Positions 27,201 to 63,377 of a stretch of 64,000 bases of DNA are shown here, piece after piece. Every line of letters begins with the position of its first letter. The stretch's first letter is position 1. The translations under genes and the position numbers were made by a program. A model generated the notes under the pieces. The model worked only from the letters and a program-made list of their open reading frames with translations. It did not search any database and was not told the origin of the DNA. This stretch comes from Owenia fusiformis (taxonomy: Eukaryota > Annelida > Polychaeta > Sabellida > Oweniidae), in assembly GCA_903813345.2 (NCBI GenBank), contig CAIIXF020000006.1, positions 4,299,096 through 4,363,095 of the forward strand, read 5' to 3'.

Positions 27201-28412
27201 CAATGTTGAAATTACCAGAGATCACGAGCACAAACATCTGGGATTTACTTTTGACCCAAGCTTATCATATGACAAGCATATTGGAGAAATCACATCAAAA
27301 ATACGAAAAATGTTGAACCCTTTAAAGAAACTTAAATATAAGTTAGGTAGTAAGCATCTAGAAACCATATTTAAGTCCTTTATTTTACCCCATTTTGACT
27401 ATGGTGCTATCATGTACAGCACAGCCTCAAAGTTCCTATTACAACGACTCGACAGTCTTTATTATTATAAAGCTGCACTTTATTGTTCTGGGTGTATCCA
27501 AGGGAGCAGTTCAAAAAAGGTTTTAAACCTACTCAATTGGCCAACTCTTGAATCAAGGCGCAGTATCCAGATTAACAACTTTGTGTTCAAAATTGTAAAT
27601 GGTACAAGTCCTCCCTATGTAACTGATATTTTTGACAAATTTAGAAACCGTGCAAACAGAGTATTGAGATATAATGAAGCATTTAAAATGCCCATTAGAT
27701 GCTCAAATAGATTCTCCACCTCAGCAATACCAGCTGCAATTTCAAATTGGATCAATCTTCCACCTGCTATTAAATCTAAGAATACTCTTTCGAATTTTAA
27801 AAAACACCAAAGAGTACATTTCCAAAAAACGCCCTCGATTTTGTCAACAAGCCAGCTTAATCTAACAAGGGTTCAAGAAATAGTTCTCAATAAAGTGAGA
27901 GCTGACCTATACTTCAAAGCCCAGTTCTACGCTCACAACTTTCAGTCTATTGACAGCCCTAATTGCACTTGTGGAAAACCACAAACTCTGAAACATTTTC
28001 TCTTTCAATGTGACTTACTTACTATACAAAGACAGCAATTCATGGACAAACTCACTGATCTCGAACCAAACATCTTCAGTCATAATCTCTCTCAAACTGA
28101 TTTCATAGCTATTTTGAAAACAGGAATTCCCAAATTAAACATAGATGCAAATTCCCAAATACTACTTCTCATTGTTAATTTTGTCAAAGACAATAGCTAA
28201 TTCCCTCCTTCTTATCCATCTCTAGTATCCTCAAGTCCCGTCACACCTGCCCTAGTCCAAGACCCTGCCTGCTCTGCCACTTCTACTTCCACCTGCCCCC
28301 TATTCTTATATAATGCCATTGTGGCGATTTAAGAATTTACATGTCTGTATTTACATTTTTTGTATTCTATTGAAATAAATTTAATAATAGAAATAATACG
28401 TATCATAAAAAA
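24290..28412 (+). mobile_element. non-LTR retrotransposon, Jockey/CR1 group
   Basis: A 4.1-kb insertion within the mariner relic, flanked by a 12-bp duplication. It holds a 374-bp leader with a long C run (about 24643-24658), one intact ORF, a 3' UTR of about 200 bp and an A-rich tail. No ORF1 is present, so the element is either a one-ORF type or 5'-truncated before the protein start. Confidence 0.88.
24664..28200 (+). CDS. LINE endonuclease-reverse transcriptase (ORF2-type)
   Basis: An intact 1178-residue polyprotein for target-primed reverse transcription. Residues 1-90 are strongly hydrophobic and end in AGDVHPNPGP (91-100), a 2A-like motif with His where active 2A peptides have Glu. The APE-type endonuclease follows: SNINS (about 108), LCEA with Glu140, YRSPS (210), MGDLNAKH (247), SCIDHIL (295) and TDHS (320), all key residues present. 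The reverse transcriptase has NNYRPITLLSCISKVFEK, FLDIAAAFDRV (690-700), GVPQGSILGPILFLLYINDL and YADD (780-783). Near the C-terminus a CTCGKPQTLKHFLFQC segment forms a Cys-Cys-His-Cys knuckle-like motif. No stops or frameshifts, so it may be active or very recent. Exact clade is unresolved. The start is the first ATG, 6 bases after the C run; a later start before the endonuclease is possible. Confidence 0.95.
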   Translation: MYMLLYAYLRFFDISYVIYGILLLLYLVSCITTCLFLPLLIIYHINQHLKYIVSPYSLCLTLKVLATSCVVPGICILLFAPNLKMLLLLIAGDVHPNPGPNNLSFLFSNINSLSANGGTRFDSLKLRINELNPSIIGLCEAGISKSKMDSGDFDINNYDVFYSERGRGLVIYTHKTLVTKISNDFIIDGLDILLVTVIVNHKRILFGTCYRSPSQNATETRNYFSLLETQLDQIVTSQPAFDHVILMGDLNAKHSIWYDNDDINLAGTKLLETIDNQDFVQLVSEPTRITDHSKSCIDHILTDSPDIFDNWDVTDPIEKTDHSTIVAQIKVGVTKSKPIKKTIWKYHEASLETLNDAIRNTEWTDIIDRNIDLDLATSNFIEKLSDIYKSKIPNKIITVRSNDQPWFNNNLKREISKKKVLYKKFSKAPNQVNKFNYNQQASKVSQLIEQAKEAHELKTISSIDQLNKSDKNYWRLIKSFLGNNLHKNDISSIYDDVSGHDLSNNLDIANRFMSFFASKNHTDATFDQLPDFPIRTNSLLISAQTDQFEVMKIILSLDTSKACGPDNITNKMWNLTAHTISKPLANLFNKLLSKCTYPDIWKIGNVCPIFKKNDKSNINNYRPITLLSCISKVFEKVLADRIRKHLIDNNLLFKHQSGFLPGHSTIHQLLSIEHFLQSTFEQGKASKTIFLDIAAAFDRVPHKLLLHKLSACFQGQIQKIIKSYLTNRKIAVQISGELSNYSENDFINCGVPQGSILGPILFLLYINDLPDNLEGHCYIYADDTSLHHPFDPKHPQEVDAIARSNLIKIEKWSDTWKLEFKPEKSSEMIFHSSRSKVDNVSVSKLNNVEITRDHEHKHLGFTFDPSLSYDKHIGEITSKIRKMLNPLKKLKYKLGSKHLETIFKSFILPHFDYGAIMYSTASKFLLQRLDSLYYYKAALYCSGCIQGSSSKKVLNLLNWPTLESRRSIQINNFVFKIVNGTSPPYVTDIFDKFRNRANRVLRYNEAFKMPIRCSNRFSTSAIPAAISNWINLPPAIKSKNTLSNFKKHQRVHFQKTPSILSTSQLNLTRVQEIVLNKVRADLYFKAQFYAHNFQSIDSPNCTCGKPQTLKHFLFQCDLLTIQRQQFMDKLTDLEPNIFSHNLSQTDFIAILKTGIPKLNIDANSQILLLIVNFVKDNS

Positions 28413-44763: not shown

Positions 44764-45400
44764 CCTGGAACATTACATCTAACATGACACCATGCATATA
44801 TTATAACACCATGCATCTAACATGACACCATACATCTAACATGACGCCATGTGTCTAACCTGATGACATACACCTTACACATCATGTATCTAACATAGCA
44901 CAGTGCCTCTAACCCGTCGCCATGCATCTAACCCGACACTATGCCTTTAACATGACGACATGCGCCTTACATGACACCATGCATCTAACCTGCCACCATG
45001 TATCTAACCAGGTACCATGTATTCATCAACATAACACCTTGAATCTAATATGACACACTGCATCTAACATGACACCATGCATCTAACCTGACACCCTGAT
45101 CCAGTGTGGTCCCATACATCTAACCTGACACCATACATCTTACCCGACACTATACATCTAGCATGACACCATGCATGTAACATGACACCATGCATCTAAC
45201 ATGACACAGTGCATGTAACAAGACACCATCGAATATGACGCCATGCATGTAACAAGACACCATGCACTAATATGACGCCATGAATGTAACAATACATCAT
45301 GTATCTAACATGACGCCATGCATCAAGACACCATGCATCTAGCATGACGCCATGCATCCCGCATGATACCATGTATCTATCATGACACAGTACATCTAAC
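44764..45400. repeat. minisatellite, ~19-bp CATCTAACATGACACCATG units
   Basis: About 30 imperfect units with variants of CATCTAACATGACACCATG run across roughly 640 bp. Open frames on - rich in His, Cys and Met are by-products of the repeat. Confidence 0.85.
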
Positions 45401-45771
45401 AAGCATATCTTTCTCGGCTCCCCATGCAGGCATTACTTTTTAATATCACATTCATTGACAACTTGCTATCTCGAGCTCGCCAATGGTGTTCGCATAAATC
45501 TTTGAAATGGTTGGTAGGTGTCGAGGCGTGCATTTAAGAGGGTCTGTTTCCTATAGGGGACATTCTTTTAACACCTTTTATGTCATTAGACTTGATTTTA
45601 CTGTTGAATTACGTAGATAACATTCTTTGGGCTCGCACAACCATAAAGCACGCTAACGCGATTAAGAGGAAATCGAGGCAGCCAAACTTGTTAATGGCAA
45701 CTAGAACAATGGCAGCCAGAGAAAGTAGGCAATTACCAATTATGTTAACTAAAAGAGATACATCATTCAAG

Positions 45772-45958
45772 TTAGTGTTGTAATCCTTCAGCGATTTCAC
45801 TAAGTAGACTCTTCTCGGAAGATCTTGCTGGTTCCTTAGTGTCCCTTCTCTTCCTTCCAGGACTAATGGCACTGTTAAGATAGTGCCACTGGTCAGCAAC
45901 AGAAGCAGCCTTTTCAGTAGCACAGTGGCCTCCAAGGTTAAACAAGCAGTTCCTCTTT
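45772..45958 (-). CDS. last coding exon of calcitonin-type precursor 1
   Basis: The acceptor CATTTCAG lies at 45959-45960 and the stop codon at 45772-45774. It encodes the whole mature peptide, the G-RKRR amidation/cleavage site and a 20-odd-residue C-terminal peptide ending IAEGLQH. The 139-codon frame that overlaps it in another register is spurious. Confidence 0.85.
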
Positions 45959-48900
45959 CTGAAATGAAGGTGTACAATAGGTATACACTCCCCTCCATAA
46001 GTTTGACAACAAGAGGATTGTACATCAAAACGCAAATGTTTAAATTTAATCATATTAATTAATTATCACTCTTAATTATAGTTAGGGAAATGACGACAAA
46101 GCTGTCATTTATTTAAATCACCCAAAATAAACGGGCTTTAATAAATTATCCAAAAGGGGACGTTCAGTTATCAAACGTATGGCGGGTAGTGTGCCATCAA
46201 AATGGTCGTGCGCGTTTATATATTCATTTGTCTGTCTTATGTACAACATACGATGTATTTGTATATTAGTTAAACATTTTTACCAAATATTCACACATTG
46301 TGGGTGATTTTGCTAATACTCCAGTAAAACCGTTGTAAATATTCACAAATAAATGAGAAAATTGCAACAAAATGTAAACCTAGTGTAATCAATAACCATT
46401 GGTAAGTAAAATGACATATCAAAAATCTAGAAAAATCTAAGTGGTGGAAAACCTTTAAATCACCATTTATACCCCCTGGGGTAATTTTATGAAGGGGTAC
46501 TATGATAAACATTAATAATTTCTGTTATGTAACTGCAATCACAATAAAATTTTCAGGGATCATGCACCTATATATAGTTCAGTTGTCACAGCAAGTTTGA
46601 TATAAATTGGTCAATTGGTTACCATAGCAACACAACTTAAATGCTCAAAATCTTTAATATTTCAGTAAATTTGAAGCTTCCTATACTAACTGATGTTGCC
46701 ATTTCTCTTCAAGTCATTTAGAAATGAACATAAAGTTACCCTTAAAACATATATGGGGAGTGTTTAATAAGATAACATGATTAATTTGATGAATTATATG
46801 ATAATGGGCGTGGCACTTTTTGGTGATAATTTCCTAGAAATGTCATTTTACAGGATCAGTCACAGTTATATTTATAGAGGTCATGGATGCTGATGTAATT
46901 CTTTAATGTAATGAGTCTGAACATGATTGGTTGCCATAGTAACTGAGCATAATAAACGCAAATAGTATAGTACATATGTTCTATAAACACTTATAATACT
47001 GGATGATCATGAGCATGGCATGTGGGATGTTGAATTGGTCGAATAATGTACATTCATGGCTTAGATTATTTTGTATGCCTTATTTTCATCTGGTATTATT
47101 AAATAATTAAAATAATAAACATTATCTATGTGATATTCCATTATACCAAATTACAAGCATTATTTAAATATTGCAATTTAACCAAAAATATCCTTGATGT
47201 GATTGCAAATTTAATCTGCATACCTAGGAATACGTTGATTATGAAAAGATAAATTACATTATGGAATTAGGTTGAGTTATACATATAATGCTTCAATACA
47301 CAAAATTGTCAGATGTCATTGGCCTTGCTGATTGAGCTGTGATGAGCTGATAAGCAGTGCTGAAAAGCTGTGCTGGTAGGTGAGCTGAAAAGTTGGTTAG
47401 CTGTATTTGGACACAGGTATGATTTTGATTTAATTGTCCAGAACCAAGCTGAATCCCCAAGTCCACATTTAGTGGTGTGGTATCCCCAAGTCCACATTTT
47501 GTGGTGTGGTATCCCCAAGTTCACATTTTGTGGTGCGGTATTCCCAAGTCCACATTTTGTGGTGCGGTATTCCCAAGTCCACATTTTGTGGTAAGGTTAT
47601 GTAATTGTGTTGATACACAGTCTATTGTATATATAGCTGAAGATTTTTTTTCTTTGTCTTAGTGTTACTATTGTGACATTACACTATACCTCCTTTATCG
47701 AGACAATTATATTCTTGTATATTCTCATGTAAATGGTAGATATATAATAATACTGTATATACAGTCTTGCTTCATTCACATATAGCTATTCAGTCATAGG
47801 GAACCATCCATAGCAATCAGCTAAGCTGTTATGTGATAAAATATGAATTACATGTAGTTGAGATAGTTTAGTGTAGTTAAGATAGTTAACATAATTTAGT
47901 TAGAGTAGATAAGATATACAAGATTAGTTTAGTAGTTAGTTAAGTACTAGTTAAGTAGAAATCATAATCATGGCTGAGATGATGGATGTGGATAATGATG
48001 AGTGCATACTTTGTAATGAAACACTCTCTGACAGTACTGTGCCAACTGTAAAACTGGGTGAAAAGGGCATGTCAGGTTTACAAAAGGCAATTAATGCTAG
48101 AAATGATAGCTTTACTATAGCAGTTGGGCAAGTTGTTCATGTCCATTGTAGAAAAGAGTATACAAATACTAATGTCATATCTGCTTTGAAACGGAAACTA
48201 AGTGCACCAACAGAAAGAAATTCCAAAAATCTAAGATCTCAAGAAGTCAAATTCAATTATAAGACAAATTGCCTATTTTGTGGATAGGGTGACCCATATC
48301 AAGGTAGAAAGACTGATTTAAAACTGAACCCTATAATGACCCTAGACTATAGTTCCACATGTTTAGAAATATGCGACAAACTTAATTCGCCATGGAGCGA
48401 TGAAGTAAAAGATCGGATGCTTTTTTTGTCCAGACCTTCCAGCAGCAGATGCTGTGTACCATCAAGTATGTAGCACAAACTTTAGAACTGGGAGGGATGT
48501 CCCCCGAATTTTTGAACAGGGTGGTTCAAAGGTTAAAAATGTGGGAAGGCCACAAGAAGAAGAAAGGGAGAATGCTTTTAAAATGGTAGTAAAATATCTA
48601 GAGCAAGCTGAAGATGAGCAAATTTCAATTGAGGAGACATTGGAAAAAATGAATGAGTATTTAGAAGGAAATGAGCCTTTCAGTTGCCGTTACATGAAGG
48701 ACAGACTCAAGGCACATTTTGGAGATAGCATCCTGATAACAAACATACAAAAAAAGAAAAATGTGCAAACACAAATAAAATGGATGATATTGATTTAGAT
48801 ACAGTGTAATTGCATTGTCATGGAAAATGAAAAGTTTTCAAGCATTGATAATTTAGTCATGGTATAAATATAAAAGAGTATTGTGTATTTTTGAAGTTCA

Positions 48901-51900
48901 TTTTTCAATATAAAAAGGCAATTTGTATCCTTGCCGAAGCAAACCATGATCTAGACATGTTATTCGAAAAGCTGAAATAGTCTACCCCCCCCCCCCCAAA
49001 TTTATGTCAGAATCATTTTTATGCACTTTCCCATGTTCCATTCATCTACAAAATCGTGTTCTATTGGATTGTACTCATCAATAGTACAATAATAAGACAA
49101 AAATTCGGCTGATACACTTCAAATGCAAAACTTATTAGGTCAAGCTAATCCTGACCCTAAAATTGAACCTGAAAAATTAACACATTTATGATATTTTCAG
49201 CATTTTTTCTGACAAACCTATTAAGCTCAAGTTTTGATATTGACCATGCCTAATCTTTGACATTAGTTCAGCTAGCATGAATTTTTACAAGTTACCATTA
49301 AGCCTGATAATAGAGTTATACATAAATATAGTGAAAAATGATCCAAAATATAATACAAGGTGGGTATAAACATACACAAAAATACATTTTCTGACAATTT
49401 TTAATTTTCTGTTGAATAGATTTCTCAATTTTAATATGTCTCTGATGCATATCCAAAAAAAGAACTACAATTTTGTAATGAGAGCCGAATGAGATTTTTT
49501 TAAAGATATATCATTGAGATTTAGGGGGTGATTAAGGAGGGTATCTTCATCCTTTGAATTCTTAGTCTTCCACTGCTTAGATTTTTCTAGATTTTTGATA
49601 TGTTGTTTCACTTACCAATGGCTATTGATTACACTAGGTTTACATTGTGTTGCAATTTTTTCATTTATTTTTCAAGATTTTACTGGAGTATAAACGAATT
49701 TTGTAATCTCGAATAAGACTTATTTGAAATAGCATGTATGGTGAATATTTTTTGCTTAAAAAGTATTTGAGAATTTTGAAGTCAACACATGAGTCAACAT
49801 CCGTTAAGGTTGTTATACGGCAGTGGTCCAGAAATAACAACTCAATTGCAAAGCAATAATGGTCATCATCTATATTAATAATAGCACATATACATATATA
49901 GATAGCACGACGTGAATTATATTGAATAATTCAAACCTTAGTACACTTTTTAACGTATTATATTTATAGCAAATTTGAGTGAGTCATAAGGCGACCGTGC
50001 GTCATCACTTCAAACGGCAGAACGGCAAGCTTAGGTTTTCTGTCTGCACAACGTACGCCGCATTGTTTGACAGTAGAAACCAAGACTTCGGCGGTCTTGA
50101 GATTGCTTTTGACCGTAAATAGCCTATAGACCACATGGTCACCTTAGCAAATGTGAGCCTGACTTTGACATAGTTAATATAAAGTAATCTTATTGCTAAC
50201 TTACTGTTCCAGCATGAGGTCTTCGTCTAAATCTTCTAGCAATCTTCTCAATATGTTTAGTGCACTTCTTTTATTTTTAAGGGTCTCGATGGCTCTACAA
50301 TTAAAAGAAATTAACATACATTTTGTACGCAGTTTCATGCGGTAGAAAAGAAATATTTGTCTTTAATTAATAATACAGGGTGGTCCAAAAAAAGTGAACC
50401 CCTGCAACTGGCCATATTTCCCTTATTACTTGCAGGAATTATTTTTTATTTTCACACGTTGTAGAGGAAGGTCTAAAATTCATGTTGGTACCATACATTC
50501 TTCTTAGTCTTGAAATTTGCAGAAATTATAAGCCCTAACCAAACATTACTGAAAATGGACAAATTATGATTTTCAATATCCGCGATTCTTCAACCCTTTA
50601 ACACCTTTCCCTTGAGAATTTTTTAAGCTGCAGTTTAAAGAAGTAATATTTTCTGACTTTGTTCAATTTTAAATCCTGCACATTATGGCTTAAAACTAGC
50701 ATCCTACCTTTGTTAGTTGCAAAGTTATTGTGATCCAAAGAGATGTGCTAAGCTTCCACAGACGAAAACATTTTCCAGTGAAATCATGAACATACCCCTG
50801 TATGATCTTGAAATGTCAATATCTTCATAAATCATGGACCAATTCTAATGATATATGACTCAAAACATTGAAAATTGAATTTTCTTTTGATTTTTTAAAG
50901 ATATTTGATGAATGGGTTATCAGATTCCTGGTCACAGGGGGCAACTTCCTTCCATAAGAGGCCCCCCTCTAACTGTTGGTGTAGGTACCATACCCCTGAA
51001 CTGTTGAACAGATAAAATGCTTCAAAATGATCAATGAAAGTGTGAAATGTGTTTTCTGCTTTAATAGTGTCCCTTTTGTCATATGGTAGGGTTTTAAACT
51101 TTTATCTCTAACTGAAAGCTGTTTAAGATCATCCAATGTGTTTCAACAATTTCCGTGAATAACATATGTAAAATTTTGTACAATATCTCATTTCCAGGCA
51201 TGTTTGTTAAACGTTTGTAATTTCTTCAAAATTTAAGACTGAGAATTAATTATGGCATCAACCAAAATTTTAGACCTTTCTCTTCATAATATGAGCCAAT
51301 TCATGCATGTGTAATGACCTTCGATATCAAGTCGCTACTACAGTCTCAGCTGTAGTGGCTAGCCTTTATGGCTCAGGGGTAGAGCGTCTGACTCGAGAGC
51401 GGGAGCGATTCCCGTAAGGGGCATTGAATTTAGCACATTCTCTTTCGAGTCTAGTATCTGGCTCGGTACACTACAGCTCCCCGACGAGCGTGCCCAAGGG
51501 TCGTTACACATGTATTAAGAAAAATGTAGCCTGTTGCAGGGGTTCACTTTTTTGGACCACCCTGTATATTGTAGACTTGACAGGATGGAATCGATTATCG
51601 ACATATTTCAACACATAAACATTCAAGGTTTTTCCACATATGTCTATTTTATATATTGCTGAGCATTGTGGATAAATAAAACACAGTTATATCCCCAATG
51701 GCTTTATACCTCGCCAACTTTAGGATTTTAGTTACATCATCGAAGCTGATGGTTTTAAGGTTAACGTTAAATGTAAAATTATTACATGACAGCATAGGAA
51801 CACCTTAATTAAAAATCCCACCACCTACAAATAAATCTCATGTGTAATGAGACCTTAATTAATATTATTGAACCACCACATAGTGAAAGCATTAAACAAT

Positions 51901-53378
51901 TCCTAATACCACATTCGTTTGATAAAATTAGTAATCGAAAGGACGATTCTCGGTTTGGAGAACAGTCTCCTGGGCTAATAATTTTTTCATGAAAAATATA
52001 GAAATATTACCCAAATTAAACTATGAATATTCAAAAGAGGACATTTAAATCTACAAGATGTAAAAATAACAAATTGGTCTGAAGCAGGGATAACGCTCAA
52101 CTAGACCGATTCAATAAAATACAAGTCTCGATTTGGGGAAAGAAGTTCATCAGTGTACTGCGCTAATATTTTTTTGCGAAAAATCTAGTAATATTACCCA
52201 AATTAAATTATGACTATTCAAAAGAAGACATTCAAAAATCTATATTATGTAAAAAAATCAAATTTGTCCGAAGCAGGGATAATGCTCATTTAGATTGATG
52301 AACTTTGTTCTCCAAACCGAGAATCGTCCTTCCCCCTTTTAGATCGGATATGAACTCATGTTCATGTTTGGAAATTTAAAAAATTCATCAAATCAAACAG
52401 ATCATTGACTCCAGGAGTGTGATGAGCGACCAAAAAGATATTCACTGCGGATTTCCAAATTGTGGAAAATGGGAAATTTGAACTTTGGCAACTTCAAAAG
52501 AGGTTCATTTATACAAGCATAGTGCAAAATTAAGCAATAATACTTTTAATTATATTTTTAATTAATTATCAATCGTGTATTCTTATATAAATTTATGATG
52601 ATTCCATGGAGGATTGGCTCCTAGAGTGCAACATCGATATTTTGTCCCATATATGGGGATGTCGTGCTACAAAATTCGAATTCCATCAGCCGCCATTTTG
52701 TTTACTTCAACATTTGAATCGTGAATTTTGGTCTTATTTCAAAACGAAAAATTACAAAACTCACATGAATTGATCGAGATATTGGTTCGAATCTTTTGGA
52801 CTGTTTATTTTGTATTTATTATCATTTATAAATTCAGAAAATAACGACATTTCGGCGTTTTCATTGTTGGAAAATATCGACTTCGATTCTGAGAGCCAAT
52901 CCTCATTGTGATGATTCGGTCAAGCATATTGAGTGCAGCTGTGACTACAATATGAAGGAAAATTTGGGAATTTTCATTTTTTGATTTTTGGTCGCTCAAG
53001 GCACCCCTTGTGTCAATTTTAGTCTCTAACTCCACGAGAAAACAAAGGTAGTTCAACTGGATGGTGTCATTCTGTAAGGAAATGATTTATCTTGAAAATG
53101 ATATATGAGACATGTCATGGTTTAACATGGGTCATTCATCTTTAAACTTGGATGTTGGTTTTTTGGCCCACCCTGTATACTGTAGTAAAACTTGAAATAC
53201 AGTATCATCAAAGCAAGAGTATATACGAGATTATATTGCTTCTTATACTATAACAATCTACCACAAAGTGAATGTGTGTCATGCTACACATTTCAATTCC
53301 TTCACATAACCGTTCCCTGTGCGTTAGACTGAGGATTAATCCCAATGCGTTGACTAGAACTGTAATTATTCTCATCAT
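45772..53378 (-). CDS. calcitonin-type peptide precursor 1
   Basis: Exons on -: 53311-53378 (signal peptide; weakest), 50205-50294, 45772-45958. All introns are phase 2; total 114 residues. Signal MMRIITVLVNALGLILSL. The middle exon (90 bp) gives a propeptide, AIETLKNKRSALNILRRLL and on. The last exon gives Q-KR, then NCLFNLGGHCATEKAASVAD and QWHYLNSAISP before G-RKRR. The product is a 31-residue peptide with an N-terminal disulphide (Cys2-Cys10) and C-terminal Pro-amide, the hallmark of calcitonin-type hormones acting on class B GPCRs. The GGHCATE..VADQW..LNS pattern is typical of lophotrochozoan calcitonins. Donor/acceptor CA|GTAAGT and TTTCAG|A support the last two exons. The first-exon donor, CG|GTTATG, is poor, so that exon is tentative. 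Introns hold the elements at 46317, 50376 and 52605. Confidence 0.72.
45986..46192. mobile_element. Tc1-like MITE next to the exon acceptor
   Basis: CACTCCCCTCCATAAGTTTG begins after TA at 45984. The inverted right end (ACGTATGGCGGGTAGTG) is degenerate. Related to the copy at 58116-58306. Its left end lies only 27 bp from the calcitonin last exon. Confidence 0.55.
46618..46631. promoter_or_regulatory. X-box-like (RFX) motif
   Basis: GTTACCATAGCAAC fits the RFX X-box GTNRCC-spacer-RGYAAC. It sits in the 46317-49690 element about 1.35 kb before its ORF. Confidence 0.4.
46930..46943. promoter_or_regulatory. second X-box-like (RFX) motif
   Basis: GTTGCCATAGTAAC fits the same consensus and shares flanking bases (ATTGG before it) with the first, so the pair may be an internal duplication. 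Confidence 0.4.
47455..47591. repeat. 29-bp tandem repeat, 4.7 copies
   Basis: Units start at 47455, 47484, 47513, 47542 and 47571, with the core CCAAGTCCACATTTTGTGG. Each unit contains the small palindrome CCACATTTTGTGG. Open frames on both strands here follow from the repeat. Confidence 0.88.
47970..48798 (+). pseudogene. decayed ORF with Cys/His zinc-binding-like N-terminus
   Basis: It starts MAEMMDVDNDECILCNETLS. A Cys-X2-Cys pair, then KLGEKGMSGLQKA and VGQVVHVHCRKEYTN (a His-X-His-Cys block), and later NCLFCG, suggest a zinc-binding fold. A stop at 48285 interrupts it, yet the same frame continues (GDPYQGRKTDLK, TCLEICDKLNSPWSDEVKDR). After a frameshift near 48425 it resumes as VYHQVCSTNFRTG and a coiled-coil-like acidic region, ending at 48796. 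I believe this is a transposon-borne gene family found in many invertebrates, but I cannot name it. The enclosing inverted-repeat element supports that. Confidence 0.6.
50205..50294 (-). CDS. middle exon of calcitonin-type precursor 1
   Basis: 90 bp between TTGTAG and CA|GTAAGT, phase 2 at both ends. Same length and phase as the exon at 58596-58685, with a similar charged, Leu-rich product (ALNILRRLLEDLDEDLMLEQ). Confidence 0.75.
51310..51508. mobile_element. 199-bp element with TGTAATGACC ends
   Basis: TGTAATGACC and GGTCGTTACA are inverted ends, flanked by CATG (51306-51309, 51509-51512). It carries a tRNA-like stretch and an inner inverted pair AGCTGTAGTG / CACTACAGCT. Confidence 0.6.
51362..51424 (+). 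other. tRNA-like sequence (not a functional tRNA)
   Basis: ATGGCTCAGGGGTAGAGCG matches a tRNA D-arm and A-box. CTCGAGA could be an anticodon loop (CGA). CGGGAGCGATTCCCG makes a T-arm stem, but its loop has 5 bases instead of 7. No complementary acceptor stem is visible. Most likely a tRNA-derived piece of a short element. Confidence 0.4.
51567..52595. other. no gene; diverged internal repeats
   Basis: Intron sequence of calcitonin-type gene 1. ATTACCCAAATTAAA and GAAGCAGGGATAA occur twice each (about 52009/52194 and 52082/52271). CGATTCTCGGTTTGGAGAA at about 51942 is inverted at about 52305, indicating another small inverted-repeat element (about 51935-52335). Confidence 0.45.
52605..52898. 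mobile_element. GGAGGATTGGCTCC MITE, full copy
   Basis: 294 bp with inverted ends CATGGAGGATTGGCTCC and GAGCCAATCCTCATTG, flanked by the 9-bp duplication TGATGATTC (52596-52604, 52899-52907). It lies in intron 1 of the gene-1 model. Confidence 0.82.
53311..53378 (-). CDS. possible signal-peptide exon of calcitonin-type precursor 1
   Basis: ATGATG at 53378 opens MMRIITVLVNALGLILSL then THRER, a good signal peptide. Ending at CG before GTTATG gives the phase 2 junction needed by the next exon, but the donor is weak. A TATA-like TTATATAAAT on - at about 53613-53622 lies 240 bp upstream. Confidence 0.4.
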
Positions 53379-53790
53379 GAGATAAAAGTACACCTTATTA
53401 GAGGATCAATATCAATTATTGATAGGATATCCTTGTTTTGGGATTTCAAGTTTGCACCACTTTTCTTAATTGTCTCTAGTTTGTCACACAGAGCACGTGT
53501 CTGTTTCAAAGAGCATAGGGATTTCCTCCTGTTGAAACATAGTATTCAACCAATTTCATTCTGTGCTTACATTAATTATTTTTATCATAAAATGTTACAA
53601 GGCTAATAAACTAAATTTATATAACGAGAGTCGCTGTTTGTCACAGATTAACATATTAAACTTAAACTTCGGTTAAAAAATAGTTGTCATCGACAAAAAG
53701 ACATTTCTAAGTCTAAGATATCTTTTTAGAGTTAAAAACGACAAAAAGAGCTATGATAAATTGTAATAATTAAGATATGAAAATAAATAT

Positions 53791-53810
53791 AACATAACAT
53801 AACATAACAT
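53791..53810. repeat. (AACAT)4 microsatellite
   Basis: Four perfect AACAT units just downstream of the stop codon of calcitonin-type gene 2. Confidence 0.85.
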
Positions 53811-53830
53811 ATGATCAGATTAGACTAGAT

Positions 53831-54041
53831 TTAGACCAAGATTATGACAACACCATACGCCATCGCCCACCTTTTCATTTCAACATGTTGATCACTTGAT
53901 GCAAAGAGGTCGGCAATCGATCGTCTTCTTCTGCCAGGACTGAGCCCACTTTTCAACCAATCGTAAACCTGCATCTTGTCGTTGAGGCCCTGTAGCGCAC
54001 AGTGGTGACTCAGACCACCTCCTATGGCACAGGTCTTTTTC
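53831..54041 (-). CDS. last coding exon of calcitonin-type precursor 2
   Basis: The acceptor is at 54042-54043 and the stop at 53831-53833. It encodes the KK-flanked mature peptide and the G-RRRR signal. It begins with one base completing a Gln codon, exactly as in precursor 1. Confidence 0.85.
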
Positions 54042-57000
54042 CTGAAATGACGTCATATATATTACTACGCGATTCCAGCTATATAAGAGTATGAAATTGG
54101 CATTAGCTGTCCTGAAAGCAATTTAAAAACAGTTTCAATTCAAGGCACCTTTATTTGACCTTTTCCAATCGCAAAAGATATTCTCAACGTATTCGCATGG
54201 GTCCCCCATCACAAGTGTACTTCAGAGTTTTACAGGGAACATGATGCAAGTTGAGTGTTGGTTTTATGCTATACTATTTTTGAAAGTACGTAACTAGCTC
54301 CTATAAATACTATTCCAAACATTTGAATGTATTACTTAAAATTCACATTAAAACAAAGTAATAGTTATACTATTTGTGTTAATAACTTGACCAATAGAAA
54401 GTGTGAGAAAATTAATAATCGGTGTATTTATTCATGTTATAAAGTATGAACAATAGTAATATTGAAGATATTGAGCTTAACAGTAAAATAAAAACAAAAT
54501 ATTTCATTCTCCTTAATAAAAAATCTATAATACATTATTAAACAAAACCAGTATACAAATTATGCAGATGACAAGCAAAAAGTAAATACGAAATCTGAAG
54601 AAAATGTAGATGTAGCTTCAACAAATAGTAGTAGTAGTAGTAGTATTGGTATACAACTTATTTGACGCAGAACAGTATATTCATACCACAAATACAATTT
54701 CAAAAATGCGGAGTTGTACTCCTACACATTTGACACGGACAGCGCATAATGTCAGATCAACATGAAAGTGAGTGAGTCCATTCACAGGAGCTAAATCAAA
54801 ACCAACCCCGATAATCCTCAGGGCGAATTGAAAGACAGTGGATTGAACTTTGATACCTTCTGGTAGCTTTGTTACATACTTTACACAATTTATAACAAAG
54901 TTGTTTATTGCGGTTTCATCGACCGTCTGATTCCAATTTACAAACTAAGTGTTCTTAGACGACATAACAACAATATGGGGCTAATAGGTAATTCAGCTTA
55001 TGTTTTTAAAAGAAATCCAATAAAAGTCAATATCGCCTAGAGAGATCGATGAGTTAAAACAATTTTTAATTAACATTTGTATTTCCCAATTCAACCCCTG
55101 TGGATGTTATTTTCTAATTTCTGTTTTAAATAACACCTTCATATTTAATCCTATAGGGAGGTCCAAAAAAGTGAACCCTGCAACAGGCTATTTTTTCTTT
55201 AAACTTGCACGAATAGACTCATATTTTCACATGTTTTAGAGAAAGGTCTAAAATTTTGGTGTAATCTCAGTCTTTAATTTTGAAGAAATTACAAGAGTTT
55301 AGCAAACATGCCTGAAAATTAGATATTGTGCAAAATTTTACCAATGTGATTCACAGAAATTGTTGAAACACATTGGATGATCTTAAAGAGCTTTCAGTTA
55401 GAGATACAAGTTTAAAACCCTACCATATGATAAAAGGGAAACTATTTCATCAGAAAACACATTTCACACTTTCATTGATCATTTTGAAGCAGTTCAACGG
55501 TTCAGGGGTATGTTACCTACACCAACAGTTAGAGGAGGGCCTCTTGTGGAAGGAAGTTGCCCCCTGTGACCAGGAATCTGAGAAGCCCTTCATCAAATAT
55601 CTTTAGAAAATCAAAGGAAAATCTAATAATCAATGTTTTGAGCCATATTTCATTAGAATCGGTCCATGATTTATGAAGATATTAACATTTCAAGATCATA
55701 TAGGGGTATGTTCGCGATTTCACTGAAAAATGATATCGTTTATGGAAGCTTAGAACATTTCTTTGGATCACAAGAACTTTGCAACTAACAAAGGTAGGAT
55801 GCTAGTTTTAAGCCATAATGTGCGGGATTCAAGATTGAACAAAGTGAGAAAATATTCGTTCTTTTAGACTGCAGCTTAAAAAATGGGTAGTTTAGAAAAT
55901 ACATCACCAAGAAAATGCATTTTCTAAGATTTTGGGGCTCCCAGAGGGTAAATTAAAATTATGAATTTCACTTTTAGATTTTTATGAAACAAATTGCCTA
56001 CATCATTATGTAATATTATACATTAATCAATAAGAGGTACTAAAGTATTACTACTACACATTTAATTTTTAAATGTTATTATCGAATTCAATTATAAATC
56101 AACTATTTTAACTGAGCCAAGTATTGGATGATTGGAGGCAGTTTTGATCAAATTTGCAAAGGGTTAATTTTATTCTCACCTGTCTCAACAAAACAGGAAT
56201 ATCCCAGAATTCATACAGTCATACTTCTCTTATGTAAAGTATATCATTGATTGGCCAAGGGTTCATCTATAATCCTGGAAAATGACCTCTTCTGGACGAA
56301 AAGCGTGGGAACATCTGATATGACCAGTTCCCATGACAGTGTGTCACCTGTCATTTCTCTGTAATGATGTTCACTTTCCTCCAAAAGATTGAAAACAATT
56401 GTAGTACAGTAAAACCTGTATATCTGAACACTTGGCTAATCCGAACACCTCCCAATTTGAACATTTTTTGGTCCCGTTTTTCCTCCCATTGACTCAAATG
56501 TTAAAAAAACTTGAAATATGAACACCTCCCAATTTGGACAGTGAACAGTCATGTTTGAAAAATTAACCTATCTAATCTGAACACATAAAATATCACATGT
56601 TCCATACAAAATTGATCAAATATTTGAAAAAAAAACTTGAACGATCTCACTCATGGTGGGGCTTTCTAGGATGACTAAATTCATTTGAATCAGATTTTCA
56701 TGTCACTGTAATGCCATAAAGCTAAGTAGTCACATATCAAATATGAACAAAATCGCTCCACTACTTTTCAAGTACAGCAAAAATTGTAAAATAGCGTGTA
56801 AATAATGGTGGCCATTTTCAAAATGGCCGCCTTCTTGCCAAAATATCATAAAACAGTGTGGCATGCTAATAAGTAGTCACATATTAAATATGAACAAAAT
56901 CGCTCCACTACTTTTCAAGTTATAGCAAAAATTGTAAAATCGTGTGTAAAAGCCGCCATTTTTCAAGATGGCTGCCATGTGTTTCTTAAATATCTACATG

Positions 57001-59968
57001 TCTAGCTTAATTAATGTGCTATATAACTTTTTTACTTCTTCTACTCCCATAGGGTATATGTGTCTACATGCATAAACTACGAAAAAAGCACTTGGTGAAA
57101 AATGTGTATATCCTCTGGGAGCCCCAGCATGCATTTTCTTGGTGTTGTATTTTCTAAACTACCTAAAAAATGTCAGGGGAAGGGTGTTGAAGTGTTGAAG
57201 AATCGCGGATATTGAAAATCAAATTATATCCATATTCAGTATTATTTGGTTAGGGCTTATAATTTCTTCAAATTTCAAGACTAAGAAAAATGTATGATGC
57301 CAACATGAATTTTAGACCTTCCTCTACAACATGTGAAAATATAAAAGAATTCCTGCAAGTAGTAAAATAAAATTTGGCCCGTTGGAGGGGTTCACCTTTT
57401 TTGGACCACCCTGTAATTGACGATTGTTGTATAAACCATCTGAGCACTAAATACCTCGAACGACAATTTTGATAAGTGATAAGGCATTTTTGAGATATGT
57501 ATTTAGTCAAAACAAATTAGATTAGAACCTACAAACGGAAACTAATAAATTAATACCTTTTGTGAAGGTTACAATGAATAATAACAGACATGAAAGACAG
57601 TAACATGTAAAAGTTACACGCACCTCCATTTTTCCCTATTATTAAAAGTACAACAAATGCCTATATGGGATTGTATAAATATATCCTCGGATTGACCAAC
57701 TGATTTTAATTAGTTCGATTCCATTTAGCGTATATTGATTTCTTGAAAGTACAGATTTTTACTTTTCTTAATTACTTTTCACCCACTACGGTGGTTTAAT
57801 AAAGAATACGAATCCCTTTGAGCAATGAACGCATGCAATTGTGGCATAAATGTGTCACGAAGTCCAAAACGATATCCACTATATTAGATGAAAAATATAA
57901 TGACCTTGGTTGACAATAAATACTTCAGTTTCGTATTAAAGGCAGAACAAAACGTATACTACTGTAAGTTGCTATGCGGATAAACAGGGTAAAAACTAGA
58001 AATGTTCATTCTACCTAATAAATACATGGATAATTGTCTTTAGAGGAAGTCTAATAATTAACCTTACATTAACCTGTACATTCCCATGTTGCCATGGCAG
58101 CACAACACAAATATACACTCCCCTCCATAAGTTTCCCAACAGGAAGTTGCCATAGCAGAGTAAATCAAAACCTGAGAATGTGTGAATCTTAAATTTATTC
58201 ATGAATTACAATCATGGTAATGACGTTTGTGTTTGTTTTGTAAATCGCCAAAAAAACAAGATTTGTTAAATGGGACTATCTGAGAATCACGTTGTCAAAC
58301 TAATGAGAGTGGAGTGTAATTGTTTTAAAATCGCATCAATTTCTTCATTTTGTTAGGAAGGTAAAAGCTATACGGAAAATGGTTATTTGTCTGTGTTTTG
58401 GTAAAACGTAAATTATCATTCTGTAATAAGCCTCAGTATAACACGGTGTACTTCTGTACTTTTACTGACAGCACATTTGCTTTAAAGAAAGTCTTTTTAT
58501 TAACACAATGGATTTTGAAAATTTCTCACATACTACCTTTTCATAATGTTTAGAATGTGATTGGAATGTGTAGCGATTTATTGAGAATGACTTACTGTAT
58601 TCTTTCCAATTCTCCATCTAACGCCCCCACCAGGTCCTTTATATGGAGAAGATTATTTCTCGTCTCTAGCAATTGTTGGGCTTTTCTGAAATCAGAAATT
58701 ATAATCAAACTACTACTTGTGAGAACAACCAATTAATTAAAAAAATTCCTTGGCAGAAATCAGGAATCGCTAAACTAGTATAAACAATTCTTGGTTTTGA
58801 TTTTAACTAATACTTATTTTTTTCATAAATAGATTGACAACTTGAAAACTGCCTTAAAACAACCTATTAAATTAAATTATGCTTGAAGATTTTGACAAAG
58901 TGATACATTTTAAACCTCATTATGCATTACCATATATATGCAGGCTTTAATGAATCACTCTATATGGACTTAAACAAAAACCTCATGAAAAACAAAAGAA
59001 TTCCAAATTTTTTGCTCAACATCATCAACCCTGGCTTCAACTAGGCACCAAAACGAGACTTACGGTTAGCATCAGAAAATCAAAAATAAAAACATAGGGT
59101 TAGATTTTGAATTTCATTATTCAACCACAAATATCGCCGCGGACATAATCATCCTGGTCTCCAATATCAGGCTTTCAATATAGTGCATTTTGTGACTCCA
59201 CTCCTTGCCCAGAAATTCCTTTACGATTATATTTCCACCCTATTTTTTCTCCTTGAAACACAATTTTCAATATTAGCCTCATCACCTTCACTCAAAGGGA
59301 TTCTTAATCCTTCAAAACTGAAACTTTGAACAAGACGGATACAGACAACAATGGACGAAATGAATAGACTTCGCACCGGACTGAATAACAAATGCCAGCT
59401 CCTGAAATATGACACAAGTATGGGGAAGGCCTCATTGCGCAGCTCCAATATTAGATTTTTGACATGCTGTTGAATTTGCCAATACTTGTATAGTATGTAG
59501 AGGATCTCGTTCATATTCATAAGCCTTGTTGATGATATTTTTAACCCACTTTGTACAAACTTTCATAGGTCAATTGTTGATAAATACTTGTCAAAAAAGC
59601 GGCTCATCTTTTTGGAACGACCGAGAAAATCGAAAGAAATATGCAGCATAAATTATTGGGATAAGCTGTATGATGTAGACCTTCTATATCAATTTTGTGA
59701 AGCTACGGCCGCCGTAGAGCAAATGTGACTAAGGCTTAGACAATACAATTAGTTATAAGAAAATGTTTCAGGAACAGTGTGGAGATGTTAAGGCTAAAAG
59801 AGGTCAAAAACAAAGTTTTTTAGCTATTCGTAAATATTACATTAATTAAAAGTCCTTGATAAATTCTAATTCTTACTTAACGTATATATCCTTGTCAGCT
59901 GAGCATAGACCGACAGCTAGGACGATTCCTAAGACAGCGGTTAAGGTACATCGGTCCTGCATACACAT
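53831..59968 (-). CDS. calcitonin-type peptide precursor 2
   Basis: Exons on -: 59877-59968 (coding part), 58596-58685, 53831-54041; introns all phase 2; 130 residues. Splice sites are good: AA|GTAAGA, TGATTTCAG|A, CA|GTAAGT, ATTTCAG|G. Signal peptide MCMQDRCTLTAVLGIVLAVG then LCSA. The middle exon gives KAQQLLETRNNLLHIKDLVG and on. The last exon gives Q-KK, then TCAIGGGLSHHCALQGLNDK and MQVYDWLKSGLSP before G-RRRR. The mature peptide would have 33 residues, a Cys2-Cys12 disulphide and a C-terminal Pro-amide. The ring is longer than in precursor 1. The two genes are tandem paralogues about 450 bp apart. A residual C-terminal peptide of 28 residues follows the RRRR site. A 5' UTR exon probably lies upstream near 60.7 kb. 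Confidence 0.8.
54626..54643. repeat. (TAG)6 microsatellite
   Basis: Six perfect TAG units in the large intron of calcitonin-type gene 2. Confidence 0.9.
55886..57163. mobile_element. nested element with 9-bp duplication, GGTAGTTTAG ends
   Basis: 1278 bp flanked by TAAAAAATG (55877-55885, 57164-57172). The inverted ends include GGTAGTTTAGAAAATACA, CCAAGAAAATGCAT and GGGGCTCCCAGAGG. The interior has a direct repeat of about 100 bp (ACATAT.AAATATGAACAAA, about 56730 and 56878) and a Tigger/pogo-like end. The 9-bp duplication fits Mutator-like elements. Confidence 0.72.
56404..56600 (+). repeat. pogo/Tigger-like terminal fragment
   Basis: ACAGTAAAACCTGTATATCT, then GAACACTTGGCTAATCCGAA and repeated CCAATTTG.ACA words, look like the subterminal region of pogo-group elements. 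No right end or transposase. Confidence 0.45.
58116..58306. mobile_element. Tc1-like MITE
   Basis: TA-flanked (58114-58115, 58307-58308). The ends CACTCCCCTCCATAAGTTT and AACTAATGAGAGTGGAGTG are inverted. A related copy is at 45986-46192. Both calcitonin-type genes carry one in an intron. Confidence 0.7.
58596..58685 (-). CDS. middle exon of calcitonin-type precursor 2
   Basis: 90 bp, phase 2 at both ends, with consensus acceptor and donor. It encodes a Leu-rich propeptide segment (KDLVGALDGELERI). Confidence 0.78.
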
Positions 59969-59974
59969 ACCTTG
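59877..59974 (-). CDS. signal-peptide exon of calcitonin-type precursor 2
   Basis: The acceptor TTATTCCAG is followed by CAAGGT and the ATG at 59968, so the 5' UTR is split by an intron. The donor is AA|GTAAGA. A second in-frame ATG lies two codons later. Confidence 0.75.
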
Positions 59975-60755: not shown

Positions 60756-61701
60756 AGTTGTGCTTTTGTAGGCGCCTTCTATATAATTTTCACGCGGTGT
60801 ACTGAATGTGTGACACGACATGGTTCCTTCCCGGAAGCCCTTTGATTTCTAAGAGTTTCCCTTTTAAACACATCAGAGCCATCCCCGATGCTCATTTAGA
60901 TAATCGAAAAACACGAGAATACAATTTCTTAATTAAAGGTATCATCCGGAACCTTTAACCCAAGTTAGAATAGTTGAAGCCTTCAAACAATGTTGCCCTA
61001 GCTAATTCAATGAGTGTAAAATTGGTTAATCTTGTAATGTTGTCTCTTGGGACAATATTTCACAGGATATTCTAAACATGATACTTTGATCTTCAACAGG
61101 CGATCCTCTTAGCGGTTTTTACAGATCCTTGCGATTGGGACTTGCACAAGTGCAAAAATGTCTTTATCGACCACAAATTTTAGATCATATATTTGACACC
61201 TCACTTGGATAAAAAATCTTTCAAATTAATTTCCAATTATGGTTTTCATTGACAAATTACAGTGGGATTGATTCTTTAAATTGCTACTATCTTGCTACTG
61301 AAACAAATATCATCATTGCTACATTAATACTTGCACTTAGCACTTTAAGGTTGGCCCCATATTCATTTAGATTCGCCGTATCAAATCATTTTAACATAGA
61401 CATTTTTGGAGTTAATAATAACGGAACTATCGGACGATGTATGTATTCTATGTTGATGCCTCGTGAAAGTATAATTTACATATAAGTATGGATTAAAAAT
61501 AGTTTTTGTTATTCAGCCTGAAAATCACTGATATTAGCCTTCTTAGTATATTATATATGAACTATTCCATTTACAGATTTTCATATTTTCACATGAAATA
61601 TGATAAATGACTGTAGCCTTTAGTCATCGATTGGACTATCGAAAACCTAATGTAACGTTTTGTGATAAATGGATGCCATGACGTAAAACAGATGAAACCA
61701 T
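60756..61701. other. nothing recognised beyond the possible promoter
   Basis: No repeat found. A 78-codon frame at 61249-61485 has no supporting feature. Confidence 0.35.
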
Positions 61702-62057
61702 AACTGGTGTATCTCATACTTGAGTGGGTTTAGGGTAGATATAACCTTTTCCACCTTTTTCAAATGACAAGATATTTATATTTAACATTTTCGTAATATT
61801 CCTTTTTGTTCAATACAATGAAACTGTAACACTTAAACTTAAAAAATTTAAATTTTAAAATTAAAAAATTAAAACTTTTTATATTTAAACTTTTTTAAAC
61901 TTTTGCAAAATTCCCGGGAGCGGGATGGATATATTATATCTGCCCGCATTTGGCCTGGAGCGGGACATATACAATATATCCTACCCGCTCCTCAGATACG
62001 ATATATATTCCCGGGTGATATCTACCCCAAACCCACTCAAGTATGAGATACATAGGG

Positions 62058-62198
62058 GTTATGCACTGGGAGGTTTTGGATACAGGGAATATCCCGAGGG
62101 ATATACAATATATCTTCCCGAGGGACCGAAGGGACCGAGAGAAGATGTATTGTATATCCCAAGGGATATTCCCTGTATCCAAACCGACCGTGCATAAC
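62058..62198. mobile_element. 141-bp hairpin MITE in unit 1
   Basis: Ends GTTATGCACTGGGAGGTTTT and the inverse AAACCGACCGTGCATAAC. The body forms a nearly complete hairpin (GGATACAGGGAATATCCC with its inverse). Confidence 0.65.
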
Positions 62199-62546
62199 TG
62201 GTGTATCTCATACTTGAGTGGGTTTAGGGTATAACCCTTTCCACCTTTTTCAAATGACAATATATTTATATTTAACATTTTCGTAATATTCTTTTTGTTC
62301 AATACAATGAAATTGTAACATTTAAACTTAAAAAAATTAAATTTTAAAATTAAAAAATTAAAACTTTTGATATCTAAACTTTTTTAAACTTTTGAAAAAT
62401 TCCCGGGAGCGGGATGGATACATTATATCTGCCCGCATTTGGCCTGGAGCGGGACATATACAATATATCCTGCCCGCTCCTCAGATACGATATATATTCC
62501 CAGGTGATATCTACCCCAAACCCACTCAAGTATGAGATACATAAGG

Positions 62547-62687
62547 GTTATGCACTGGGAGGTTTTGGATACAGGGAATATCCCGAGGGATATACAATAT
62601 ATCTTCCCGAGGGACCGAAGAGACCGAGGGAAGATGTATTGTATATCCCAAGGGATATTCCATGTATCCAAACCGACCGTGCATAAC
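62547..62687. mobile_element. 141-bp hairpin MITE in unit 2
   Basis: Same as the 62058 copy with a few substitutions, so the duplication of the unit followed the insertion. Confidence 0.65.
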
Positions 62688-63377
62688 TGGTGTATCTCAT
62701 ACTTGAGTGGGTTTAGGGTAGATATAACCTTTTCCACCTTTTTCAAATGACAAGATATTTATATTTAACATTTTCGTAATATTCTTTTTGTTCAATACAA
62801 TGAAATTGTAACATTTAAACTTAAAAAAATTAAATTTTAAAATTAAAAATTAAAACTTGATATATAAACTTTTTTAAACTTTTAAAAAAATCCCGGGAGC
62901 GGGATGGATATATTATATCTGCCCGCATTTGGCCTGGAGCGGGACATATGCAATATATCCTGCCCGCTCCTCAGATACGATATATATTCCCGGGTGATAT
63001 CTACCCCAAACCCACTCGAGTATGAGATACATAGCTTTACGTCCCGCTCCAAGCGGGCAAATATAGTATATCTGCCCGCTACGTCATAATCGCTGTTCCC
63101 GTATTGGTTCTTTTTTGTAACGTTCGCATACTGTAAACGACAATGGAGAAAAACGCAGACAATCACCGGATCTGTTTGATGCTTTAAAGAAGGGAAGGAG
63201 CAGTATGCCCCGTTAATAATGTTAATAATCAAAGATTTGAACAGGAAAAGAAACAAGAATACAAAACTGGACATGAATATTTAAAAATAATTCTACGGTT
63301 GGTTGCAAAGTTTCTGAACTGGCCAATTGAACAATGTGATTGGTATGGGATAAACAGATCATCCTGTAGTCGGTTCA

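Follow-up and report, generated by a model that had tools for sequence, protein, structure and literature searches.

We identified a calcitonin locus on the minus strand of a 64,000-nucleotide window of the Owenia fusiformis genome (contig C6, positions 4299096 to 4363095), and its two peptide-coding halves probably form one gene with one signal exon and two calcitonin peptides. Two genes are clearly less likely than one. The signal exon, the two middle exons and the two peptide exons are real, and a further 135-bp exon at 53528-53394 likely joins the halves. The calcitonin gene itself is real and largely of an ordinary lophotrochozoan type, where the term lophotrochozoan reflects the matches of the predicted peptides to published ones. 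No N bases are present from 45 to 61 kb of the window. In 5' to 3' order, the exons and mature peptides are as follows.

59974-59877, minus strand: signal-peptide exon, ATG at 59968-59966, MCMQDRCTLTAVLGIVLAVGLCSADKDIYV, ending in the phase-2 donor GTAAGAAT
58685-58596, minus strand: middle exon A, 90 bp, phase 2-2, KAQQLLETRNNLLHIKDLVGALDGELERI
54041-53871, minus strand: peptide exon A, 171 bp, phase 2-2
54034-53936, minus strand: mature peptide A, predicted as TCAIGGGLSHHCALQGLNDKMQVYDWLKSGLSP-amide, cysteine spacing 9, followed by GRRRR
53528-53394, minus strand: likely linker exon, 135 bp, phase 2-2, no other frame open
50294-50205, minus strand: middle exon B, 90 bp, phase 2-2, AIETLKNKRSALNILRRLLEDLDEDLMLE
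45958-45772, minus strand: peptide exon B and end of the coding sequence, stop codon TAA at 45774-45772
45951-45859, minus strand: mature peptide B, predicted as NCLFNLGGHCATEKAASVADQWHYLNSAISP-amide, cysteine spacing 7, followed by GRKRR

The introns of this six-exon model measure 1191, 4554, 342, 3099, and 4246 bp, and all five are in phase 2. All four internal exons (90, 171, 135, and 90 bp) are divisible by three and symmetric (phase 2-2), and the phase-2 frame is the only open one in each of them, while peptide exon B has one extra open frame. Joined in frame, the six exons encode a single 254-amino-acid precursor that carries peptides A and B with basic sites around both; when the linker is left out, the frame is kept and the precursor has 209 amino acids. 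The sequence-only reading, which preceded this analysis, had described middle exons of equal 90-bp length and introns that are all in phase 2, and both descriptions are accurate. The three junctions that it proposed (59877-50294, 58596-45958, and 50205-45958) all maintain the frame. Its broader claim, that all combinations of signal, middle, and peptide exons could be spliced together in frame, stands with regard to frame but not with regard to several signal exons or to the joining of middle exon B to peptide exon A, which is impossible by ordinary splicing because middle exon B lies downstream of peptide exon A. Its statement that the exons are phase-compatible is right, as is its suggestion that one promoter could serve both hormones.

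Splice sites were scored with a generic animal weight matrix that was not trained on O. fusiformis; on this scale, the six modelled acceptors ranked in the top 0.6 to 4.8% among 3,194 minus-strand AGs and the five modelled donors in the top 0.5 to 7.9% among 3,552 minus-strand GTs. A scan for open, symmetric phase 2-2 exons with a summed score of at least 11.5, with thresholds chosen with the modelled exons in view, returned 10 candidates over the whole minus strand, 7 of them in the 14.2-kb gene region. These seven were the four modelled internal exons and three overlapping variants with a common acceptor at 54111. Elsewhere, the scan gave 0.06 candidates per kb for the minus strand, and the plus-strand figure was 0.11 per kb; the cluster in the gene region is more than chance. 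The 5' end of the signal exon (59974) is an acceptor-like AG at which the sequence-only reading had placed it, and a non-coding leader exon farther 5' is possible. A second long open frame of 146 codons (45609-46049, minus strand) overlaps peptide exon B in a different frame, and we take it for a chance occurrence.

Judged by their sequences, peptides A and B are calcitonin-type. Each ends in proline followed by glycine and basic residues (SPGRRRR and SPGRKRR), as expected of the Pro-amide ends that had been proposed for them, and each is preceded by a dibasic site at which cleavage is predicted (KK before A and KR before B). Protostome calcitonins are reported to carry two N-terminal cysteines 7 to 9 residues apart (PMC6002491), and the spacings of 9 in peptide A and 7 in peptide B fall inside this range. 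Both peptides were compared with nine published peptides in 18 comparisons with 5000 shuffles each, in which the cysteines and the last two residues were held fixed and the lowest attainable p was 0.0002. Four pairings reached this floor: peptide A with scallop 1a (16 of 33 columns, z=10.3) and mussel CALCIa (15 of 32 columns, z=9.6), and peptide B with scallop 2a (15 of 31 columns, z=11.5) and scallop 1b (15 of 30 columns, z=9.9). Lower degrees of similarity were seen between peptide A and scallop 2a (p=0.0006), mussel CALCIIa (p=0.012), and salmon calcitonin (p=0.035, at most a weak match) and between peptide B and Locusta A (p=0.014) and scallop 1a (p=0.027); the nine remaining comparisons gave p values above 0.09. 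In the same fixed-cysteine shuffles, human calcitonin matched neither A (p=0.26) nor B (p=0.98), and salmon calcitonin did not match B (p=0.87). PF00214 (Calc_CGRP_IAPP) gave no match up to an E value of 10 in hmmscan of three precursor models, and Pfam and PDB sequence searches likewise returned no calcitonin match. The proposal that the peptides are calcitonin-type, which dissimilarity to calcitonins would have overturned, was thus upheld by the search against lophotrochozoan calcitonins, with z values of 9.6 to 11.5 against mussel and scallop and four pairings at the p floor.

Searches of the 498-Mb assembly (525 contigs) detected this locus as the sole one of its kind at the level of sequence similarity. 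The scallop 2a query gave one genome match, peptide exon B (E=1.8e-5), and the scallop 1a query also gave one, peptide exon A (E=0.023). When used as the query, peptide exon A retrieved itself and, at a distance of 8 kb, peptide exon B as its sole further hit (E=0.98, 33% identity); peptide exon B retrieved nothing in the genome beyond itself. Middle exon B and peptide exon B queried together matched those two exons and missed middle exon A. A second copy of the signal exon was not found in the genome by a search that a diverged second signal exon would escape. Neither mussel CALCIIa nor Drosophila DH31 matched the genome, and these are weak absences given the sensitivity of the search, since peptides that are about 50% identical are detectable and yet the A query came just to an E value of 0.023.

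To act as a gene of its own, the downstream half would need a signal peptide. The exon at 59974-59877 is signal-like by Kyte-Doolittle hydrophobicity, with a best 10-residue mean of 2.95, a value reached by only 7 of 247 minus-strand ATGs followed by 30 open codons. The sequence-only reading had drawn two genes in tandem, both equipped with a promoter and a signal exon, and tandem duplicates of this sort would fit the presence of one 90-bp middle exon plus one peptide exon on either side. We scanned the 3.1 kb between the linker and middle exon B for an ATG with a hydrophobic stretch and a phase-2 donor, with positions 100-45000 of the same strand as the background (19 rows, best combined score 3.99). 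The scan returned three rows from two ATGs, compared with 1.3 rows expected from the background rate. The two candidates and a neighbouring element are listed here.

51892-51822, minus strand: candidate downstream signal exon, combined score 4.34, hydrophobicity 2.12
51082-50994, minus strand: candidate downstream signal exon, combined score 4.27, hydrophobicity 1.98
50374-51566, no strand assigned: repeat-derived element that carries TACAGGGTGGTCC... as terminal inverted repeats and stops about 80 bp 5' of middle exon B

Both candidates outscored all 19 background rows, which counts in favor of a second gene, and so did one further candidate, in the intron that follows middle exon A (combined score 4.21). 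However, their hydrophobicity falls short of the 2.95 of the exon at 59974-59877, and when the gap that separates the linker from middle exon B was simulated 300 times with a Markov model, 10% of the simulations contained a combined score of 4.34. Of these simulated gaps, 2.3% held at least three rows, 8.7% held at least two ATGs, and 2% reached a hydrophobicity of 2.95. The plus strand of the window yielded 16 rows, 2 of which reached 4.27. Additionally, one of the two candidates falls within the repeat-derived element, whose 28-base end has 302 genome matches with at most two mismatches. A separate downstream gene should have its promoter upstream of middle exon B, and the nearest stretch there is taken up by this element. 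An unspliced alternative, the in-frame 5' extension of middle exon B from the ATG at 50338, had a best hydrophobicity of 1.3, a value reached by 49% of the same 247 ATGs, and is not signal-like. We consider a signal exon of its own for the downstream half improbable, as the candidates are weak and within the reach of chance.

The lone copy of the signal exon in the genome, the weakness of the downstream candidates, the repeat upstream of middle exon B, and the frame that continues across both halves all favor one gene, so that two tandem genes are an unlikely arrangement and the drawing of two units, each with a promoter and a signal exon, is an overstatement. The same lack of a convincing signal exon could point to a downstream half that is a decaying duplicate with lost expression, and a repeat-end fragment does lie about 23 bp upstream of the acceptor of peptide exon B. 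This is highly improbable, because the downstream reading frame is intact, the downstream splice sites score in the same range as those of the upstream half, and peptide B retains its cysteine pair, amidation signal, and cleavage sites and shares about 50% of its residues with the scallop peptides. The locus cautions against an annotation that splits it into two genes.

The exon that likely links the two halves has the weakest donor of the modelled set (4.5). It is the sole candidate with a score of at least 12 in its 3.6-kb interval, but a chance candidate with its score appeared in 15% of 300 Markov-simulated intervals. If it is left unspliced at 53394, the frame runs to a TGA at 53377-53375, and the unspliced linker could serve as an A-specific terminal exon. 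We rejected the idea that the linker is a decayed middle exon or peptide exon. Its similarity to middle exons A and B was not significant (p=0.19 and 0.25, respectively), and neither was its similarity to peptide B (p=0.16); a value of p=0.034 against peptide A, obtained by free shuffling, was discarded given that four comparisons had been made. The two middle exons, compared without gaps in the exon register, share 7 of 29 residues (p=0.014), with zero offset the best of the seven shifts tried, whereas free local alignment of the same pair was not significant (p=0.25). The register comparison suggests that an old cassette duplication likely gave rise to middle exons A and B.

With one gene as the preferred reading, a single promoter upstream of 59974 would drive minus-strand transcription of a lophotrochozoan gene of the CALC I kind, in which one signal exon is followed by cassettes A and B, each made of a 90-bp middle exon and a calcitonin peptide exon, with the 135-bp linker probably connecting them. 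The full-length transcript would encode the 254-amino-acid precursor, from which cuts at basic sites and amidation would release both peptides. Any internal exon could be skipped without a frameshift, and transcripts with A only or B only may therefore exist. An A-only transcript might end in the linker, at the stop codon 53377-53375 with AATAAA signals 3' of it at 52820 and 52809, or might arise by read-through from peptide exon A; between peptide exon A and the linker, neither AATAAA nor ATTAAA is present. A B-only transcript might splice the signal exon directly to middle exon B, or might pass from middle exon A straight to peptide exon B. The 1.27 kb that follow peptide exon B contain one ATTAAA, at 45444.

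In the vertebrate CALCA gene, which encodes calcitonin and CGRP, one promoter serves alternative peptide exons. The locus described here would share this general one-promoter logic with CALCA, whereas human and salmon calcitonin are unlike peptide B and at most weakly like peptide A. The vertebrate calcitonin/CGRP analogy is unneeded for the present gene, as two calcitonins per bivalve precursor and the splicing of A and B calcitonins in insects and crustaceans are already in print. According to PMC7200681, the mussel CALCI precursor encodes two peptides, three peptides lie on one precursor in Capitella, and in oysters and a limpet a two-peptide precursor is one of two precursors. The scallop peptide list in PMC5996578 is given as 'A, B; B', other', so that the semicolon comes after one A-type and one B-type peptide; should it mark the boundary between precursors, the list would agree with two precursors that carry two peptides each. 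O. fusiformis resembles bivalves in having A-type and B-type calcitonins with matching sequences, of which bivalves are reported to carry two per precursor (PMC7200681 and PMC5996578). The comparison covers peptide sequences, with CALCIa for mussel CALCI, and the cysteine spacing of peptide A is 9 where the bivalve peptides have 8.

Splicing precedents come from arthropods and a sea cucumber. The termite has one calcitonin gene with A and B transcripts, in which the A exons lie ahead of the B exon (Veenstra 2014, PMC4237046); it is similar to the present locus in its single gene and single signal exon, its A-before-B order, and the cysteine pair and Pro-amide of both peptides, but its B transcript encodes three B peptides, and two termite transcripts are reported. 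Decapods have two calcitonin transcripts (PMC4888303). The calcitonin gene of the shrimp Litopenaeus vannamei has four exons, of which exon 3 or exon 4 is used (PMC11673531), and it likewise combines one gene and a common N terminus with an A or a B peptide exon, whereas the present gene has six coding exons with a middle exon of its own for each peptide. In the sea cucumber, AjCTP1/AjCTP2 transcripts encode one or two peptides (PMC12638048), so that one gene encodes two calcitonin peptides in exons that follow each other, and one of these exons can be omitted; this is a deuterostome type, in which the long form has both peptides and the short form one. We rejected Locusta calcitonin A (PMC4237046) as proof of A/B orthology, since its similarity was the wrong way round for a plain equation of A with A (p=0.14 for peptide A and p=0.014 for peptide B). 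Any link with the A and B types of arthropods would rest on gene order and type. In our literature search, whose scope excluded a J Exp Biol 2019 oyster study, we found no account of a lophotrochozoan calcitonin gene being alternatively spliced.

These precedents bear on which product is made. By analogy with the bivalve relatives, which are reported to have such precursors, a two-peptide precursor is favored as the default product, and alternative splicing of the A and B exons is a plausible addition to it. The array might instead make A and B precursors that are mutually exclusive, by alternative splicing and alternative 3' ends, with the polyprotein rare or absent; we consider this a doubtful but by no means negligible possibility, and its likelihood overlaps that given to a single gene. 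The four symmetric internal exons, the stop in the linker frame with its two AATAAA signals, and the termite, decapod, and shrimp genes are consistent with such exclusive use. However, the bivalve precursors are reported with two peptides per chain (PMC7200681, and PMC5996578 by its punctuation), and no competing splice structure was found in the gene. The candidate for one was a 23-bp direct repeat located within 46014-45982, by the acceptor of peptide exon B, and within 58144-58112, after middle exon A. With at most two mismatches, this motif has 4,236 genome matches (2,280 forward and 1,956 reverse), and we rejected it as a docking element for splicing because it is a common repeat end.

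The exon map places lophotrochozoan-type A and B calcitonins in one in-frame array at the level of the gene, with A ahead of B as in the termite gene. It thereby makes testable whether the A/B pair of protostomes goes back to a single ancestral gene and whether splicing lets lophotrochozoans switch between the hormones. A tentative reading, to which we give a minor share of probability, is that an A-then-B array was ancestral in protostomes, has stayed whole in lophotrochozoans, and was trimmed in the termite and shrimp, and that A-only, B-only, and two-peptide precursors are made here according to the cell. If true, lophotrochozoans would have retained a middle exon per peptide and skippable phase 2-2 exons.

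Several repeats and other features were found in and around the gene. Some of the listed copies of the 23-bp motif lie about 850 to 860 bp apart in opposite orientation, like the ends of short transposons. Inverted copies of the repeat element, up to 373 nucleotides long and 91% identical, occur at 50423-51244 and 55265-57365 in two introns of the gene; they might pair in the pre-mRNA and perhaps affect exon skipping. Inside the element before middle exon B, the stretch at about 51370-51440 (minus strand) resembles part of a tRNA by eye, and ARAGORN, run with the bacterial code, found no tRNA gene in the window. On the plus strand, an uninterrupted frame of 1188 residues at 24634-28200 contains a reverse transcriptase domain and an endonuclease domain (Pfam RVT_1 and Exo_endo_phos_2) of the sort found in non-LTR retrotransposons. 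The stretch 61699-63033, upstream of the calcitonin gene, holds 2.7 copies of a 489-bp tandem repeat with 95% matches. Directly downstream of peptide exon B, a degenerate 19-bp minisatellite spans 44776-45401 and may sit within, or close to, the 3' end of the gene.
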